Origin: Microcoleus vaginatus HSN003
Lineage (GTDB): Bacteria > Cyanobacteriota > Cyanobacteriia > Cyanobacteriales > Microcoleaceae
NCBI RefSeq assembly: GCF_022701255.1
Contig: NZ_CP031705.1
Coordinates: 434,001 to 498,000 of the forward strand
Length of the DNA: 64,000 bases
Direction of reading: 5' to 3'
Shown in pieces: positions 16,806-56,060 of the stretch (the first letter of the stretch is position 1; each line of letters begins with the position of its first letter). Made by a program: the position numbers and the translations under genes. The notes under the pieces are model-generated. The model was not told where the DNA came from and did not search any database. It saw only the letters and a list, made by a program, of their open reading frames with translations.

Positions 16806-16871
16806 GAACAGGCAAGATGCCTGTTCCACAAGAAAACTCATTCTTTGTGGAACGGGCCGGAGAGCCCGTTC
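16806..16871. repeat. Two palindromic interspersed repeats
   Basis: GAACAGGCA-AGA-TGCCTGTTC at 16806-16826 is followed by CCACAAGA. GAACGGGC...GCCCGTTC at 16850-16871 forms a second hairpin with a 6-nt loop. They belong to the same palindromic family as the copies at 19460-19580, 47551-47571, 55802-55930 and 58188-58208. Confidence 0.8.
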
Positions 16872-30686: not shown

Positions 30687-30720
30687 AGGAACCGCAGAGG
30701 GCGCAGAGGGGAGAGGAGAA
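30687..30720. repeat. AACCGCAGAGGGCGCAGAGG-type repeat
   Basis: An intergenic copy of a repeat also present at about 45868-45902, 33565-33592 (inside the mannosidase gene) and, degenerate, at 34560-34592, 37570-37600 and 47480-47500. Confidence 0.75.
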
Positions 30721-30782: not shown

Positions 30783-33700
30783 TTAGGTATCTGTTTTGGA
30801 CACAATTGTAAAAGTCGCGATTTTCCAAGGCTCTATCTTAAATCCTCCTCCTTCTGACAACTTTTCCGACAAATTGCCCGGTCGTTCTAACAAATCTACT
30901 GGCCCTACAATTTCTAATCCCAAATCACTATTCAATTCTAGCACAGCCTGTTTACCCTCAGATTCGCAACAGCGCAAAATCCACACATTAGAATCCTCTT
31001 CCGATTGTTTAAACGCCATCAAAACTAAATTGTCCGCCGACAAATCCAAGAACTTGCCAACTGCGGGTAAACTCTTGTTTCGATTTTCTCCTAACTGCGG
31101 CAATACCTTTACTAGCAGCGGCAAATTCAACTCATAGCCGCGCCGAACTGTGCCGGCCTCTTGCCAATTTCCGCTGTGGGGATAGACGGCACAAGTAAAT
31201 TCGGAAACTCCTACATCTGCTTGTTCGTCCGGCCAAGTCGAACCGCGAAGCAATGTCAGCCGAATTTGATTTGGTTGAAGGTCGCAACCATATTTGCAAT
31301 CATTGAGCAAACTGACTCCAAAACCGTCATTGCTGATATCAGTCCAGCGCAAAATCGGCACTTCCCATTTGGCTTTTTCGGCGGGCGTCTGTGGTTTAGT
31401 TGTGCGTGCGATCGCACCGCCGGGAATTTCGCAAGTTGCAAAATCTGCTTCTACATTTAACCCAAAGGCTGCTTTGACTAAAACGTGAGTTTCTTGCCAA
31501 TCTGCAACTGTCTTGATTTTCAGCAGCGGCGCCCCTATTTCTACTATATAATCTTGGCAAAACTCCGATTGGCCAATTTGCCGGACTACTCGCAAAATCT
31601 GCCGTATTTCTCCCTGTGCTATCCAGGAAATATCTTTCAGTATCGGCGCTGGTAGTTGATGTTTTTCATAATTTGGGTCTATGTTCCAAGCATCCCAATA
31701 TTGGCCGCTGTCTTGAAATGCTTGCAGTTGATTGCCGCCTGCTGCATTCAAGACTTCTCGATTATTTACTTTATCCCAAATGCTGGATAAATCCCCGGTT
31801 TTTCCGTCTACTGTTGCCCGAATAAATTCATTTTCTAATACCATTTCTGTGGCTACAAAAGGCGTTTCTTGACTAACTGTGTTTTTTTGTGCTATACCGT
31901 ATGTAAGTTTTGATAACTCTGTCTTTTTTTCTGTTTCTGGGCTGGCGGACGCATTATCCACAGTTTGAGCGTCTTCGCGACACAGCCAAAACACCTGGTA
32001 GCCAACGGCGGGGAGATTATTTGCCCAGAAGAATAGTTTAGATTGCGATTCGAGTCGATCGCCCCTGACAATCTGCGACACCAATCGCCGTCGGGAAAAA
32101 TCGTAAATTTGCCAAACTGAATCAGCGGAATCGGGAAGCGGTACAGCGACAACCTCAGAGCGCGACCAATTGAGAGTATTGAAAATCAAAATCGGTTGAG
32201 CGTCGGGCTGCGGAGGATTCGGCAGAGAAATTTGAGCCGAGATTGCATCCAAAGATTTTAACAGAATTTCGCGACAAGTACGATCGACCTCGGCAAAGGC
32301 TAGATTAGCATCCGCGTAGACTTGGGCGATCGCAGAACCGGGCAAAATATCGTGAAACTGGTTAAACAAAATCTGTTTCCAAGCTGATTCTAACTCGGAT
32401 TTCGGATAAACCGCACCAGTACAAATCGTTGCCAGCGAAGACAACAACTCCGCTTGGTAGAGCAATTCTTCGCAGCGGCGGTTTTGGCGTTTTTGGTCGG
32501 CGCGAGTCGTGTAGCAACCCCGGTGGAACTCTAAGTAAAGTTCGTCTTTCCAAACAGGCAGAGTGCGGGGAAGAGTTTTGAGTTGTGAGATGGGATGATT
32601 TGCATCCGAAATTGCCGATAAGTTTGACAATTCTCGCGCCTGTAAATTCTCCTGATTTTCGGATTCGGGAACATAGCTTTCGGACTTAGTTGCCGCAACT
32701 TCAGGCAAAAACTGACTCTCAATCAAAGACAAATAATCAACCGCTTTCGCAAACTCCAACTTCGGGAAAAAAGGCGACATTTTCCAGCGTTTCGCCACCT
32801 CCAACATATCACGAGTCGGGCCACCGCCGTGGTCGCCAACCCCAGGCAACCAAAGAGCATCTTGCAAACCAGTCTTAGCTTGCCAGTCAAAAGCATAACT
32901 TGCCATTTTCACCGATTCTATACTTTCGCCAATTGGAGCAGACATCATGCTAAATATTTTAGTACCGTCCAATCCTTCCCACCAAAATGCACCGTGGGGA
33001 AATTCCGTTGTATCATTCCAACGCAACTTTTGCGTCACAAAATAATCCACTCCACCTTGCCGCAAAATCTGAGGTAATTGCCACCCAAAACCGAAAGTAT
33101 CCGGTAGCCAAGCCACCCGCATCAATTCCCCAAATTTTTCTTTTGCATAATGCTGTCCGTAAAAAACTTGCCGCACCATTGATTCAGCGGAAATCAAGTT
33201 TAAATCCGGTTCTACCCACATCCCGCCGACAACTTCCCAACAACCCGCCACCACCTGTTGTTTAATCGCAGCAAATAAGTCGGGCCGATGTTCTTCCATC
33301 CAAGCATAAAGCGCCGGAGTTGAATGACAGAAAATTAAATCGGGAAACTCCGATTGTAATTTCAATACCGACTCAAAAGTTCGCTTTGCCGCTTCCCAAG
33401 TTTCCGAGACAGGCCACAGCCAAGCTAAGTCTAAATGAGCGTGACCGACCAAATAGATTTTACTTGTATATATAGATGTCAGCTCACCACTTTCTCCTAT
33501 ATATATAGATGTAGAATTGCTATTTTCTCCAACCTCAAAAACCCCCTCCCTTCTTCCTCCCTCTGCGCCCTCTGCGCCCTCTGCGGTTCCCTCATCTAAA
33601 TCCCCAGAAAAAGATGTCAGCTCGCCACTTTGTCCTATATATATAGATGTAGAATTGCTATTTTCTTCAACCTCAAAAACCTCATCTCTTCTTCCTCCCT

Positions 33701-34517
33701 CAGCGGCCTCTGTGGAACAGGCGTCCCGCCTGTTAATTTCTGCGGTTCCCTCATCTAAATCCCCCGAAAAAGCCCGCAGATATCCCAGTAAATTGTGCCG
33801 CAAAACAGACAGTGAGCGATCGAACTTTTCGCGATCGCCCACGGCCGACCAATCAATCAAATCCATCGCCAAATCAATCTCAGATTTCAGCGTTTCCCCC
33901 TTGACAAACCAGGGGCGACTTGCTATTATTTCGGTGGAGAGGTATTGGGAATTTACATTTTCTAAATTTTGAGTTAGCGAATTTTGCAAAATCTCTAATT
34001 CGGCAGCCACAAAACCCGGATCAAAACAAGAAGAGTCAGCAGCTTCGTACAAACAAATCGATCGCACTAAAGCACCGTTATCGTGACCGGGACTTACCAA
34101 TCGCAAAATTACTAAAAATTCATCTCCGGGATTGGCCGACGAACTCAACAAAACTCGATCGGCAAAATCAAATAAATCTCCCTGTCCGACTAACTCCCCG
34201 TTCACAAAAATTTGAGCATCTTCTGCCCACCAAGTCAAGCCCAGTAGCAACCGCAAACCAACGACCGGATAGCCGTGCAAATTGTCAGGCATTACAAATT
34301 GCTGGCCCAAATACAAAACTTGCTTCCCAGACGGCCAAGCAATATGTCCTTTGCTGTTAAGTTCGGCAACCGGGCTGTTACAAATATTTACCGAAGAGAC
34401 AGCCGCGTCAGAGGCGCAGTACCTCCAACCAGACTGAACCTCCACTTGGCTGAGGCGCCGCAACTTCTCGACAGTGGCAGAAATATTGTTGCTAGCAGGT
34501 GACACAGAAGCGCTCAT
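30783..34517 (-). CDS. Alpha-mannosidase, GH38, with a duplicated repeat-derived insert
   Basis: A GH38 hydrolase of alpha-mannosides, 1244 residues. Zinc ligands sit in VGHAHLDLAWLWP (His359, His361, Asp363). The nucleophile is Asp473 in WLPDTFGFGW. An N-terminal beta domain and C-terminal mannosidase beta domains follow the usual order. Residues of about 249-350, just before the catalytic domain, hold two imperfect copies of SGDLDEGTAE...NSNSTSIYIG-SGELTS. These copies are encoded by interspersed repeat DNA (33470-33775). No signal peptide, so probably cytosolic. The start is ATG 34517. The insert sits where a linker is expected and probably leaves activity intact. Confidence 0.93.
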   Translation of the reverse strand: MSASVSPASNNISATVEKLRRLSQVEVQSGWRYCASDAAVSSVNICNSPVAELNSKGHIAWPSGKQVLYLGQQFVMPDNLHGYPVVGLRLLLGLTWWAEDAQIFVNGELVGQGDLFDFADRVLLSSSANPGDEFLVILRLVSPGHDNGALVRSICLYEAADSSCFDPGFVAAELEILQNSLTQNLENVNSQYLSTEIIASRPWFVKGETLKSEIDLAMDLIDWSAVGDREKFDRSLSVLRHNLLGYLRAFSGDLDEGTAEINRRDACSTEAAEGGRRDEVFEVEENSNSTSIYIGQSGELTSFSGDLDEGTAEGAEGAEGGRREGVFEVGENSNSTSIYIGESGELTSIYTSKIYLVGHAHLDLAWLWPVSETWEAAKRTFESVLKLQSEFPDLIFCHSTPALYAWMEEHRPDLFAAIKQQVVAGCWEVVGGMWVEPDLNLISAESMVRQVFYGQHYAKEKFGELMRVAWLPDTFGFGWQLPQILRQGGVDYFVTQKLRWNDTTEFPHGAFWWEGLDGTKIFSMMSAPIGESIESVKMASYAFDWQAKTGLQDALWLPGVGDHGGGPTRDMLEVAKRWKMSPFFPKLEFAKAVDYLSLIESQFLPEVAATKSESYVPESENQENLQARELSNLSAISDANHPISQLKTLPRTLPVWKDELYLEFHRGCYTTRADQKRQNRRCEELLYQAELLSSLATICTGAVYPKSELESAWKQILFNQFHDILPGSAIAQVYADANLAFAEVDRTCREILLKSLDAISAQISLPNPPQPDAQPILIFNTLNWSRSEVVAVPLPDSADSVWQIYDFSRRRLVSQIVRGDRLESQSKLFFWANNLPAVGYQVFWLCREDAQTVDNASASPETEKKTELSKLTYGIAQKNTVSQETPFVATEMVLENEFIRATVDGKTGDLSSIWDKVNNREVLNAAGGNQLQAFQDSGQYWDAWNIDPNYEKHQLPAPILKDISWIAQGEIRQILRVVRQIGQSEFCQDYIVEIGAPLLKIKTVADWQETHVLVKAAFGLNVEADFATCEIPGGAIARTTKPQTPAEKAKWEVPILRWTDISNDGFGVSLLNDCKYGCDLQPNQIRLTLLRGSTWPDEQADVGVSEFTCAVYPHSGNWQEAGTVRRGYELNLPLLVKVLPQLGENRNKSLPAVGKFLDLSADNLVLMAFKQSEEDSNVWILRCCESEGKQAVLELNSDLGLEIVGPVDLLERPGNLSEKLSEGGGFKIEPWKIATFTIVSKTDT
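33470..33775 (-). repeat. In-frame duplicated repeat cassette inside the mannosidase gene
   Basis: Two tandem copies each contain TATATATAGATGT, a GGAGGAAGAA-like tract and a CTCTGCGGTTCCCTCATCTAAATCCC end. The right-hand copy has an extra palindrome GAACAGGCG-TCC-CGCCTGTT (around 33715-33735) where the left-hand copy has CTCTGCGCCCTCTGCGCC. One repeat has thus apparently landed in another. Confidence 0.85.
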
Positions 34518-55022: not shown

Positions 55023-56060
55023 TCAAAGTTCTAAAGGAGCCAGAGCGTTCAATAACTCTTCTAGGATAAATCGCAGCAAAGATTGAGTTGCTAATATTAA
55101 ACCTAATCGGGATTGGGCTAGTTTGGGCTGTTCTATTTTAACTTCTCCCCAAATTCGACATTGACTGTAAAAAGTCTGAAATGCTTCGCTCAAACACTGG
55201 GCTAATTTGAAATAATTGACAGGTTTTTCGAGTTTGTTTATCTGAATATTAGGATATAAATTGTCTAGCACTGTTAACAGTTGGGATATTAAACGGCGTT
55301 CTGCTGGGTGCACTAACCGCAGTCGATCGCCCTCGTCAATCCAAGGGATAGGATTTGGACTCGCCAGCGACCAAATTTGCGGCGCTGTAGCCACATCGGG
55401 CTGGGCGATCGAAATTATGCGATCGCGGTGGGCCATTCGCAGCAGGGAACAGCAGCGCGCGTGGCTGTACTGAATGGGAAACAGTCGATCGGCACACACA
55501 ACAGAAGATAATATTTTAGATTCTGGAACTGGGAGGTTCGTTTGAGCTAAACGTTGCAACCAGACGGCTAAACCTGCATCAGTCAACTCCATCTCAATAA
55601 TTCCCGCCGGCGCGACTTTAACTGCGAAATCTGGGTAGCACAGCGGTTCGAGTGTTTCTGCCAACTGTGCCGCAATTGTCTGCGGTGTCTGCTGCCAAGT
55701 TTTAGCCAATTTCAGGGCGATCGCAGACACATACAGCACCCGCGCGCTATCTTTACTTCGATTTAACGGAAATATTGCAGCATTCTCAATAAGCTTGTTA
55801 TGGGCGGGCAGGATGCCCACCCCACAATCAAATTCACTCTTTGTGGAACAGGCATCTTGGGCGGACAGAATGCCCACCCCACAATCCAATTCACTCTTTG
55901 TGGAACAGGCATCTTGCCTGTTATTGAGAATGGTGCCACCTATGAGATTTAAAGGAATTTGGGCCAGTGTTCCCTGCTGGGCGATCGCGCTTTGGAACTT
56001 GGAAAGCAAGAAACACTTCAGTGTAACTTCCGGGCACTGCTCCATATTTGCTGTATCCAT
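55023..56060 (-). CDS. DALR anticodon-binding domain protein with in-frame palindromic repeats
   Basis: A 345-residue protein related to the C-terminal (DALR) domain of arginyl-tRNA synthetase (HARCCSLLRMAHRD; RRLISQLLTVLDNL; LAQCLSEAFQTFYSQCRI; RLGLILATQSLLRFILEELL). It lacks the Rossmann catalytic domain with its HIGH and KMSKS motifs, so it is not a full synthetase. Residues of about 44-92 consist of two 19-residue units of QDACSTKSELDCGVGILSA type, encoded by 57-bp tandem palindromic repeats (55802-55915) that interrupt a probably ancestral continuous domain. The start is ATG 56060. Possible tRNA binding; function unproved. Confidence 0.85.
   Translation of the reverse strand: MDTANMEQCPEVTLKCFLLSKFQSAIAQQGTLAQIPLNLIGGTILNNRQDACSTKSELDCGVGILSAQDACSTKSEFDCGVGILPAHNKLIENAAIFPLNRSKDSARVLYVSAIALKLAKTWQQTPQTIAAQLAETLEPLCYPDFAVKVAPAGIIEMELTDAGLAVWLQRLAQTNLPVPESKILSSVVCADRLFPIQYSHARCCSLLRMAHRDRIISIAQPDVATAPQIWSLASPNPIPWIDEGDRLRLVHPAERRLISQLLTVLDNLYPNIQINKLEKPVNYFKLAQCLSEAFQTFYSQCRIWGEVKIEQPKLAQSRLGLILATQSLLRFILEELLNALAPLEL
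55802..55935. repeat. Two 57-bp tandem palindromic units inside a gene
   Basis: GGGCGGGCAGGATGCCCACC at 55802 starts a 57-bp unit that is repeated from 55859 with few changes, followed by a third partial palindrome GAACAGGCATCTTGCCTGTTA. Fifty-seven is a multiple of three, so the frame is kept. Confidence 0.92.

Follow-up and report, generated by a model that had tools for sequence, protein, structure and literature searches.

Short interspersed repeats in a linker of the GH38 alpha-mannosidase of Microcoleus vaginatus

Background

How does the gene of a conserved enzyme come to carry, in frame, stretches related to repeats that mostly lie between genes? The question is raised by the GH38 alpha-mannosidase gene of the cyanobacterium Microcoleus vaginatus HSN003 (G000; genome of 6.76 Mb in a single contig), which is contained in a stretch of 64,000 nucleotides that was analysed as a whole and is referred to here as the window. 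The original prediction saw in this gene a cassette present in two copies and stepwise colonised by interspersed repeats with the reading frame kept, in principle as in Rickettsia. Protein-coding palindromes are known from that organism, which is intracellular and has a reduced genome. Its palindromic elements (RPEs) measure about 150 bp, and an excerpt of PMC10969869 gives 44 insertions in R. conorii genes.

Results and discussion

Anatomy of the GH38 cassettes

The N, middle and C domains of a GH38 alpha-mannosidase all exceed the Pfam cut-offs in the encoded protein (matches to GH38N, Alpha-mann_mid, GH38C and GH38C2). GH38N begins at aa 353, right after the two cassettes, which have the helical N-terminal region on one side and the first strand of the catalytic barrel on the other. 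The predicted pair of in-frame copies of about 140-160 bp was recovered with the lengths given in Table 1, and a repeat search returned two direct repeats between them, one of 101 nt (92% identity, spacing 138) and one of 34 nt (97% identity, spacing 159). It was likewise borne out that one copy holds a 9-bp tandem repeat, GCAGAGGGC, which reads (AEG)n, and the other a palindrome, GGAACAGGCGTCCCGCCTGTT, at 33714-33734. Compared with the first cassettes of sister genomes, copy 1 is longer by a net 30 nt, consisting of 27 nt and a repeated AGA and containing the hairpin ACAGGCG-GGA-CGCCTGT, with exact ends that are ambiguous inside the repeat. The AGA duplication may be a chance feature, the surrounding repeat being rich in AGA. 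Both copies also contain CTATATATATAG, the core of an AT-rich motif, ACATCTATATATATAGG, that reads TSIYIG.

Among the solved GH38 proteins listed, most begin to align at about aa 338-356, and the catalytic motifs are invariant in a 13-sequence GH38 alignment. An AlphaFold model of residues 1-660, computed with 14 sequences and only modest in quality given its mean pLDDT of 66.6, has pLDDT values below 50 at residues 254-348 and neither helix nor strand from residue 268 to 352; the cassette-bearing linker is accordingly predicted by this model to be disordered. Values below 50 were also obtained for a second linker, aa 606-650.

Table 1. Positions in the window of the GH38 gene, its cassettes and related repeats
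Feature	Position	Strand	Remarks
GH38 alpha-mannosidase gene	30783..34517	-	ORF, 1244 aa, uninterrupted
Cassette copy 1, with palindromic insert	33612..33770	-	aa 250-302, 159 nt
Cassette copy 2, with 9-bp tandem repeat	33465..33611	-	aa 303-351, 147 nt
9-bp tandem repeat, copy 2	33561..33585	-	reads (AEG)n
Net 30-nt insert, copy 1	33709..33738	-	within EINRRDACSTE; relative to first cassettes of sister genomes
CTATATATATAG core, copy 1	33635..33646	.	reads within TSIYIG
CTATATATATAG core, copy 2	33497..33508	.	
9-bp repeat just downstream of GH38 gene	30688..30709	+	palindrome-free in G000
Palindrome of the family of the copy 1 insert	16808..16824	+	
Further palindromes of that family	19462, 19510, 19562, 47553	+	
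Further palindromes of that family	ends 55921, 58206	-	

Two components of the cassette are interspersed repeats

When up to 3 mismatches are allowed, the palindrome matches the window seven times, whereas 100 shuffles average 0.00 matches; for a 16-mer of the 9-bp repeat with up to 2 mismatches allowed, the count is five, compared with 0.06 in shuffles. Genome-wide, AACAGGCNNNNNGCCTGTT occurs 320 times and GCAGAGGNNGCAGAGG 39 times, with no occurrence of either reversed control, and both are present at other intergenic sites. A chance origin of the two repeats is rejected by the shuffled windows and the reversed controls. In the first 30% of the G000 contig (2.0 Mb), the pattern ACNGGCN-NGA-NGCCNGT has 137 oriented sites, 107 of which continue with TCCACA as the next six bases. 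The arms of the hairpin covary across these sites, pair 3 being A-T in 113, G-C in 19 and other in 5, and pair 7 being A-T in 130, G-C in 6 and other in 1.

That both repeats also lie between genes holds for most sites, with exceptions: when ORFs were picked by length and overlap, without a gene finder, those of at least 200 aa covered 68% of the 2.0 Mb and contained 9 of the 80 palindrome clusters and 1 of the 21 clusters of the 9-bp repeat. Palindromes therefore avoid coding regions. Seven of the nine ORF-borne clusters nevertheless sit at least 40 aa from either end. One of the nine host ORFs, 207 aa long and made of repeats, is probably not a gene. The notion that the palindrome is specially adapted by being open in all six frames was dropped, since 13.8% of random genomic 25-mers share this property; the GC form tested contains one frame with a stop on each strand.

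The remaining parts of the cassette behave differently. The AT-rich motif was rejected as a further interspersed repeat, with two matches in the 2.0 Mb, both in the GH38 gene, and the complete cassette is not an interspersed repeat either: its own genome has one full-length locus, the GH38 gene itself, and the other 39 of the 40 matches scored (from 246 first-look candidates) cover only parts of the query.

Unit number varies within the genus, probably by local duplication

A GH38 match is present in 60 of 61 genomes of the family. The cassette is absent from all 20 genomes of other genera that were read, out of 32, and conservation of its residues in distant orthologues was rejected on these; among their linkers, that of G006 contains a separate GDGGDGG tract and that of G007 is longer. 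Within Microcoleus, all 24 readable genomes of 29 hold one to eight units; G016, G020, G023, G033 and G035, in which the linker is not whole, were left out of the count. Ten genomes have one unit and ten have two (the first being reduced in G027), G013 and G022 have three, and G021 has eight, four of them identical across the compared stretch; a script counted nine SIYI motifs in G021, of which the last marks the junction with the barrel. For G017, whose linker contains unknown bases, the number is two or three, and the unit hit by these bases was omitted from the unit tree. The simplest state, a single TSIYIG joined straight to the barrel strand, is found in G015 and in one of the two GH38 gene copies of G019 (contamination 7%).

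The 9-bp repeat predates the duplication, since genomes with a single unit, such as G029, already have it; a palindrome within the cassette was encountered in no copy other than copy 1 of G000. The unit tree places the units of one genome together for 7 of the 12 multi-unit genomes (G013, G021, G022, G025, G026, G032, G037) and does not for the other 5 (G000, G014, G024, G034, G036), which suggests that many duplications are local or homogenised and that some are shared. The predicted stepwise colonisation in frame is supported, the series of orthologues being compatible with it and neither of the results that would have refuted it having turned up, with one correction: the number of cassettes is due to local tandem duplication, not to the arrival of further elements.

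Such changes in unit number are VNTR-like, and duplication is seen as well in the second linker (around aa 606-650) of G038, G029 and G031; both observations would be expected of an ordinary intragenic minisatellite whose likeness to intergenic repeats is incidental. The surroundings of the insert are difficult to reconcile with this explanation. A search with one pattern, which fixed GCAGAAATT and the palindrome, found the 9-bp repeat combined with the GC-form palindrome at 10 sites in 5 of the 29 genomes of the genus; G000 accounts for two of these sites. Beyond the search pattern, all ten share GAACC ahead and CCACA behind, and their flanks sort them into about five distinct loci, which include intergenic sites and an unrelated gene. 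In the latter, an Omp85 gene (L152:15548-17647), the composite reads EGTAEIDRRDACPT, in a frame identical to that of GH38 copy 1 (EINRRDACSTE). The recurrence of insert and surroundings at these loci in five genomes contradicts the strict form of the minisatellite explanation, which we regard as improbable, although its copy-number part remains true.

The intergenic 9-bp repeat that lies immediately downstream of GH38 provides a comparison of orthologous positions. At this one site, G033 and G013 carry 30 additional nt of the same type as the GH38 copy 1 insert, and the site is empty in G000. Given an insert shared by GH38 and Omp85 and a downstream site that is either occupied or empty, the element would be mobile or else spread by conversion; no insertion was caught within a single species. 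Other in-frame stretches that resemble heptamer arrays, for example NAQCPMPNAQCP, are present in the GH38 linkers of G012, G018, G030, G016, G017, G021 and G022.

Constraint on the cassette and integrity of the gene

If the cassette were a functional module, with TSIYIGES binding a partner or a sugar, or with AT-rich codons slowing translation ahead of the barrel, its copy number would be under selection. In line with this, nearly every unit retains TSIYI, the codons of which, ACA-TCT-ATA-TAT-ATA, are constant in 25 sequences except for one Ile codon in one of them. They include four consecutive informative codons at 0.96 or above, compared with a longest run of 3 in the flanks (186 informative columns); this constancy was spotted after the fact. 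The conservation of TSIYI is not explained by a purely neutral spacer. The unit overall, however, changes freely. In a set of 25 sequences with one unit each (296 of 300 pairs, which are non-independent), dN/dS is 1.49 for the cassette, 0.30 for the N flank and 0.10 for the first 240 aa of the catalytic part, and the cassette values per clade range from 0.61 to 2.39, all of them rough because the segment is short. The enzyme also exists cassette-free in the 20 genomes of other genera that were read, and the cassette is of low confidence and unstructured in the AlphaFold model. On balance a functional module appears unlikely, if less so than the other alternatives considered here.

An assembly artefact or a decayed gene is hardly credible. 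Draft contigs do stop inside the repeat in G016 and G033, and stops occur within two gene pieces at contig ends in G035, so that not every GH38 orthologue is demonstrably intact. The cassette is present, however, in the single-contig genomes G000 and G038 and in a 7.48-Mb contig of G013, and the eight genus orthologues with full-length matches in one piece contain no internal stops, which, with the invariant catalytic motifs, speaks against decay. An artefact was rejected on the single-contig genomes and the stop-free orthologues.

Loops of other proteins

Hosts of the palindrome that could be assigned by Pfam include a heavy-metal P-type ATPase, an FGGY kinase, Omp85, urease alpha and a MASE1 histidine kinase. 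Between its E1-E2 and hydrolase matches, the ATPase has at least one QDACST-type unit in 22 of 25 aligned genomes, the unit being single and degenerate in G011, G028 and G029 and missing in G030, G032 and G019; that of G000 has six NRQDACST units and one variant. The FGGY kinase loop, aligned in 26 genomes, contains TGILPV in G000, G038, G033, G013 (twice) and G016, a PPLTRG...LKVPLI...GDLGGS repeat in G011 and G029, and other short stretches in the remaining genomes.

The KVQRG/DNFR loop of UreC was read in 21 of the 29 genus genomes and in 20 of other genera. Of the 21, 11 carry one to four copies of the palindrome there (GQDARST and decayed forms) and 9 carry one to five copies of a GC-rich palindromic element unrelated to it (LPPLTPPYQGG); the loop of G032 is ambiguous. 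Outside the genus, three genomes of the sister genus g7 have the GC-rich element and G057 has a heptamer array (TACTCCC); the other 16 of the 20 have none of the three.

These loops bear on the possibility that the repeats act as DNA or RNA, through mRNA stability, termination or recombination sites, with the encoded residues a tolerated by-product. Covariation in the hairpin and the near invariance of the CTATATATATAG codons would fit such a role. At the UreC loop, sister species carry an unrelated repeat at the same place, which indicates that no single sequence is needed there, and we consider this explanation quite unlikely, somewhat more so than a functional module but less than a minisatellite. 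Since the palindrome and the GC-rich element alternate between sister species and another genus has a heptamer-like array, there is a slight preference for a broader reading, in which particular loops of conserved enzymes in this genus would serve as permanent landing sites for short interspersed repeats of several unrelated families, which insert, multiply in tandem and take one another's place in frame on the time scale of speciation.

Proposed origin and relation to known systems

Taken with the orthologue series, these data make it probable that flexible loops collect short interspersed repeats, filtered by the reading frame, and that the GH38 cassette arose in this manner. The linker ahead of the barrel would be a flexible loop able to accommodate additional residues. 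In an ancestor of the genus it may have gained a short stretch related to the 9-bp interspersed tandem repeat together with the TCTATATATA motif, after which slipped pairing or unequal recombination between internal repeats could have brought the unit of about 46-53 aa to one to eight copies, independently in several species. Later, in the G000 lineage, a 27-nt hairpin with a repeated AGA (net 30 nt) would have entered the 9-bp repeat of copy 1, either through insertion or through conversion by a composite present elsewhere. Insertions that hit genes are presumably lost for the most part and those that keep the frame would persist, so that the loop grows by repeats and the enzyme stays intact; the gene is presumably expressed and its enzyme unaffected. 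The loops of UreC, the heavy-metal ATPase, the FGGY kinase and Omp85 would behave as similar sinks. Scattered repeats thereby appear to rewrite proteins without breaking them.

The likeness to RPEs that had been proposed holds in principle. As in Rickettsia, palindromic repeats are found in frame in unrelated genes with the frames intact, the same composite being read in the same frame in GH38 and Omp85 and related palindromes being present in urease, P-type ATPase and FGGY kinase. The Microcoleus element, however, measures 23-30 nt, and unlike RPEs the repeats are mostly outside ORFs, multiply in tandem and share one loop with different families. Compared by description, they seem to work like RPEs without being one. 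The small dispersed repeats (SDRs) of Nostoc, reportedly described by Elhai in 2008, are hairpins of about 21-27 nt with compensatory changes, nested in tandem repeats; the Microcoleus element resembles them in size, hairpin covariation, nesting and, at the one site compared, presence or absence at orthologous positions. We know of no SDRs reported in protein loops. The heptanucleotide tandem repeats of cyanobacteria (STRR), reportedly described by Mazel in 1990, are likewise short dispersed tandem units, and heptamer-like arrays occur in frame in the GH38 linkers of sister genomes. The unit GCAGAGGGC differs from the 7-base STRR unit in having 9 bp, so that its expansion, in contrast to that of heptamers, keeps the frame. 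Calothrix heptamers are mentioned in an excerpt of PMC4692102. In-frame variable segments of bacterial genes, with length variants within genes, are covered by PMC2884548, the excerpted text of which does not describe interspersed palindromes swapped at fixed loops. A literature text search for five encoded peptides found no mention of them, and no in-frame repeats in cyanobacterial proteins were recognised among the matches listed (titles and abstract starts, few subscription papers).

If the broader reading is true, landing-site loops would give protein-invading palindromes a counterpart in a free-living organism, one bound to sites and open to several families, and a similar process would operate in a cyanobacterium with a large genome, several families swapping at one enzyme loop. 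Selfish repeats that become segments of proteins would then be testable by plain biochemistry. Relatives of the urease have crystal structures and, relative to the best PDB match, 8hcn_C, the UreC of G000 has 16 extra residues at the loop.

Linkers of the GH38 alpha-mannosidase

Within the linker that carries the two in-frame repeat cassettes, the motif ACATCTATATATATAGG, located at window positions 33497-33508 (cassette copy 2) and 33635-33646 (copy 1), is near-invariant across the genus while the neighbouring residues drift. The second low-confidence linker of the same protein is duplicated in the orthologues of three of the compared genomes (G038, G029 and G031), and in a fourth, G028, the gene is longer by ~0.8 kb at this linker, as judged from match coordinates.

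Interspersed repeats in other open reading frames

In urease UreC, a single loop holds in-frame interspersed repeats that differ by species, in 1-5 copies; in G057, which belongs to a different genus, a TACTCCC heptamer array (L458) occupies that loop. The heavy-metal P-type ATPase contains six units of the palindrome-derived peptide NRQDACST plus one variant in the own genome, and the number of units differs between species. The FGGY kinase has a loop with TGILPV, the palindrome in the opposite reading direction, or with other inserts, according to species. Interspersed repeats appear to be the main constituent of Omp85 residues ~50-222, where the stretches near 72-141 and 162-222 match many further genome sites, often with stops. 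In the MASE1 histidine kinase, two oppositely directed palindromes (NRQDACST...CGTGILPV) immediately precede the best MASE1 stretch, and NRQDACST also lies close to the predicted N-terminal end of the ORF with a DALR domain.

Positions of the features discussed (L-numbers denote stretches of DNA read, with local coordinates after the colon)
Feature	Residues	Window	Stretch read	Own genome
GH38 second low-confidence linker	606-650	about 32568-32702
ORF with DALR domain		55023-56060
MASE1 histidine kinase			L391:6955-10128
FGGY kinase			L176:7144-8448	747144-748448
Heavy-metal P-type ATPase			L164:14537-17188	514537-517188
Omp85 protein			L152:15548-17647	275548-277647
Urease UreC			L400:3348-5105; also L419-L458	1623348-1625105
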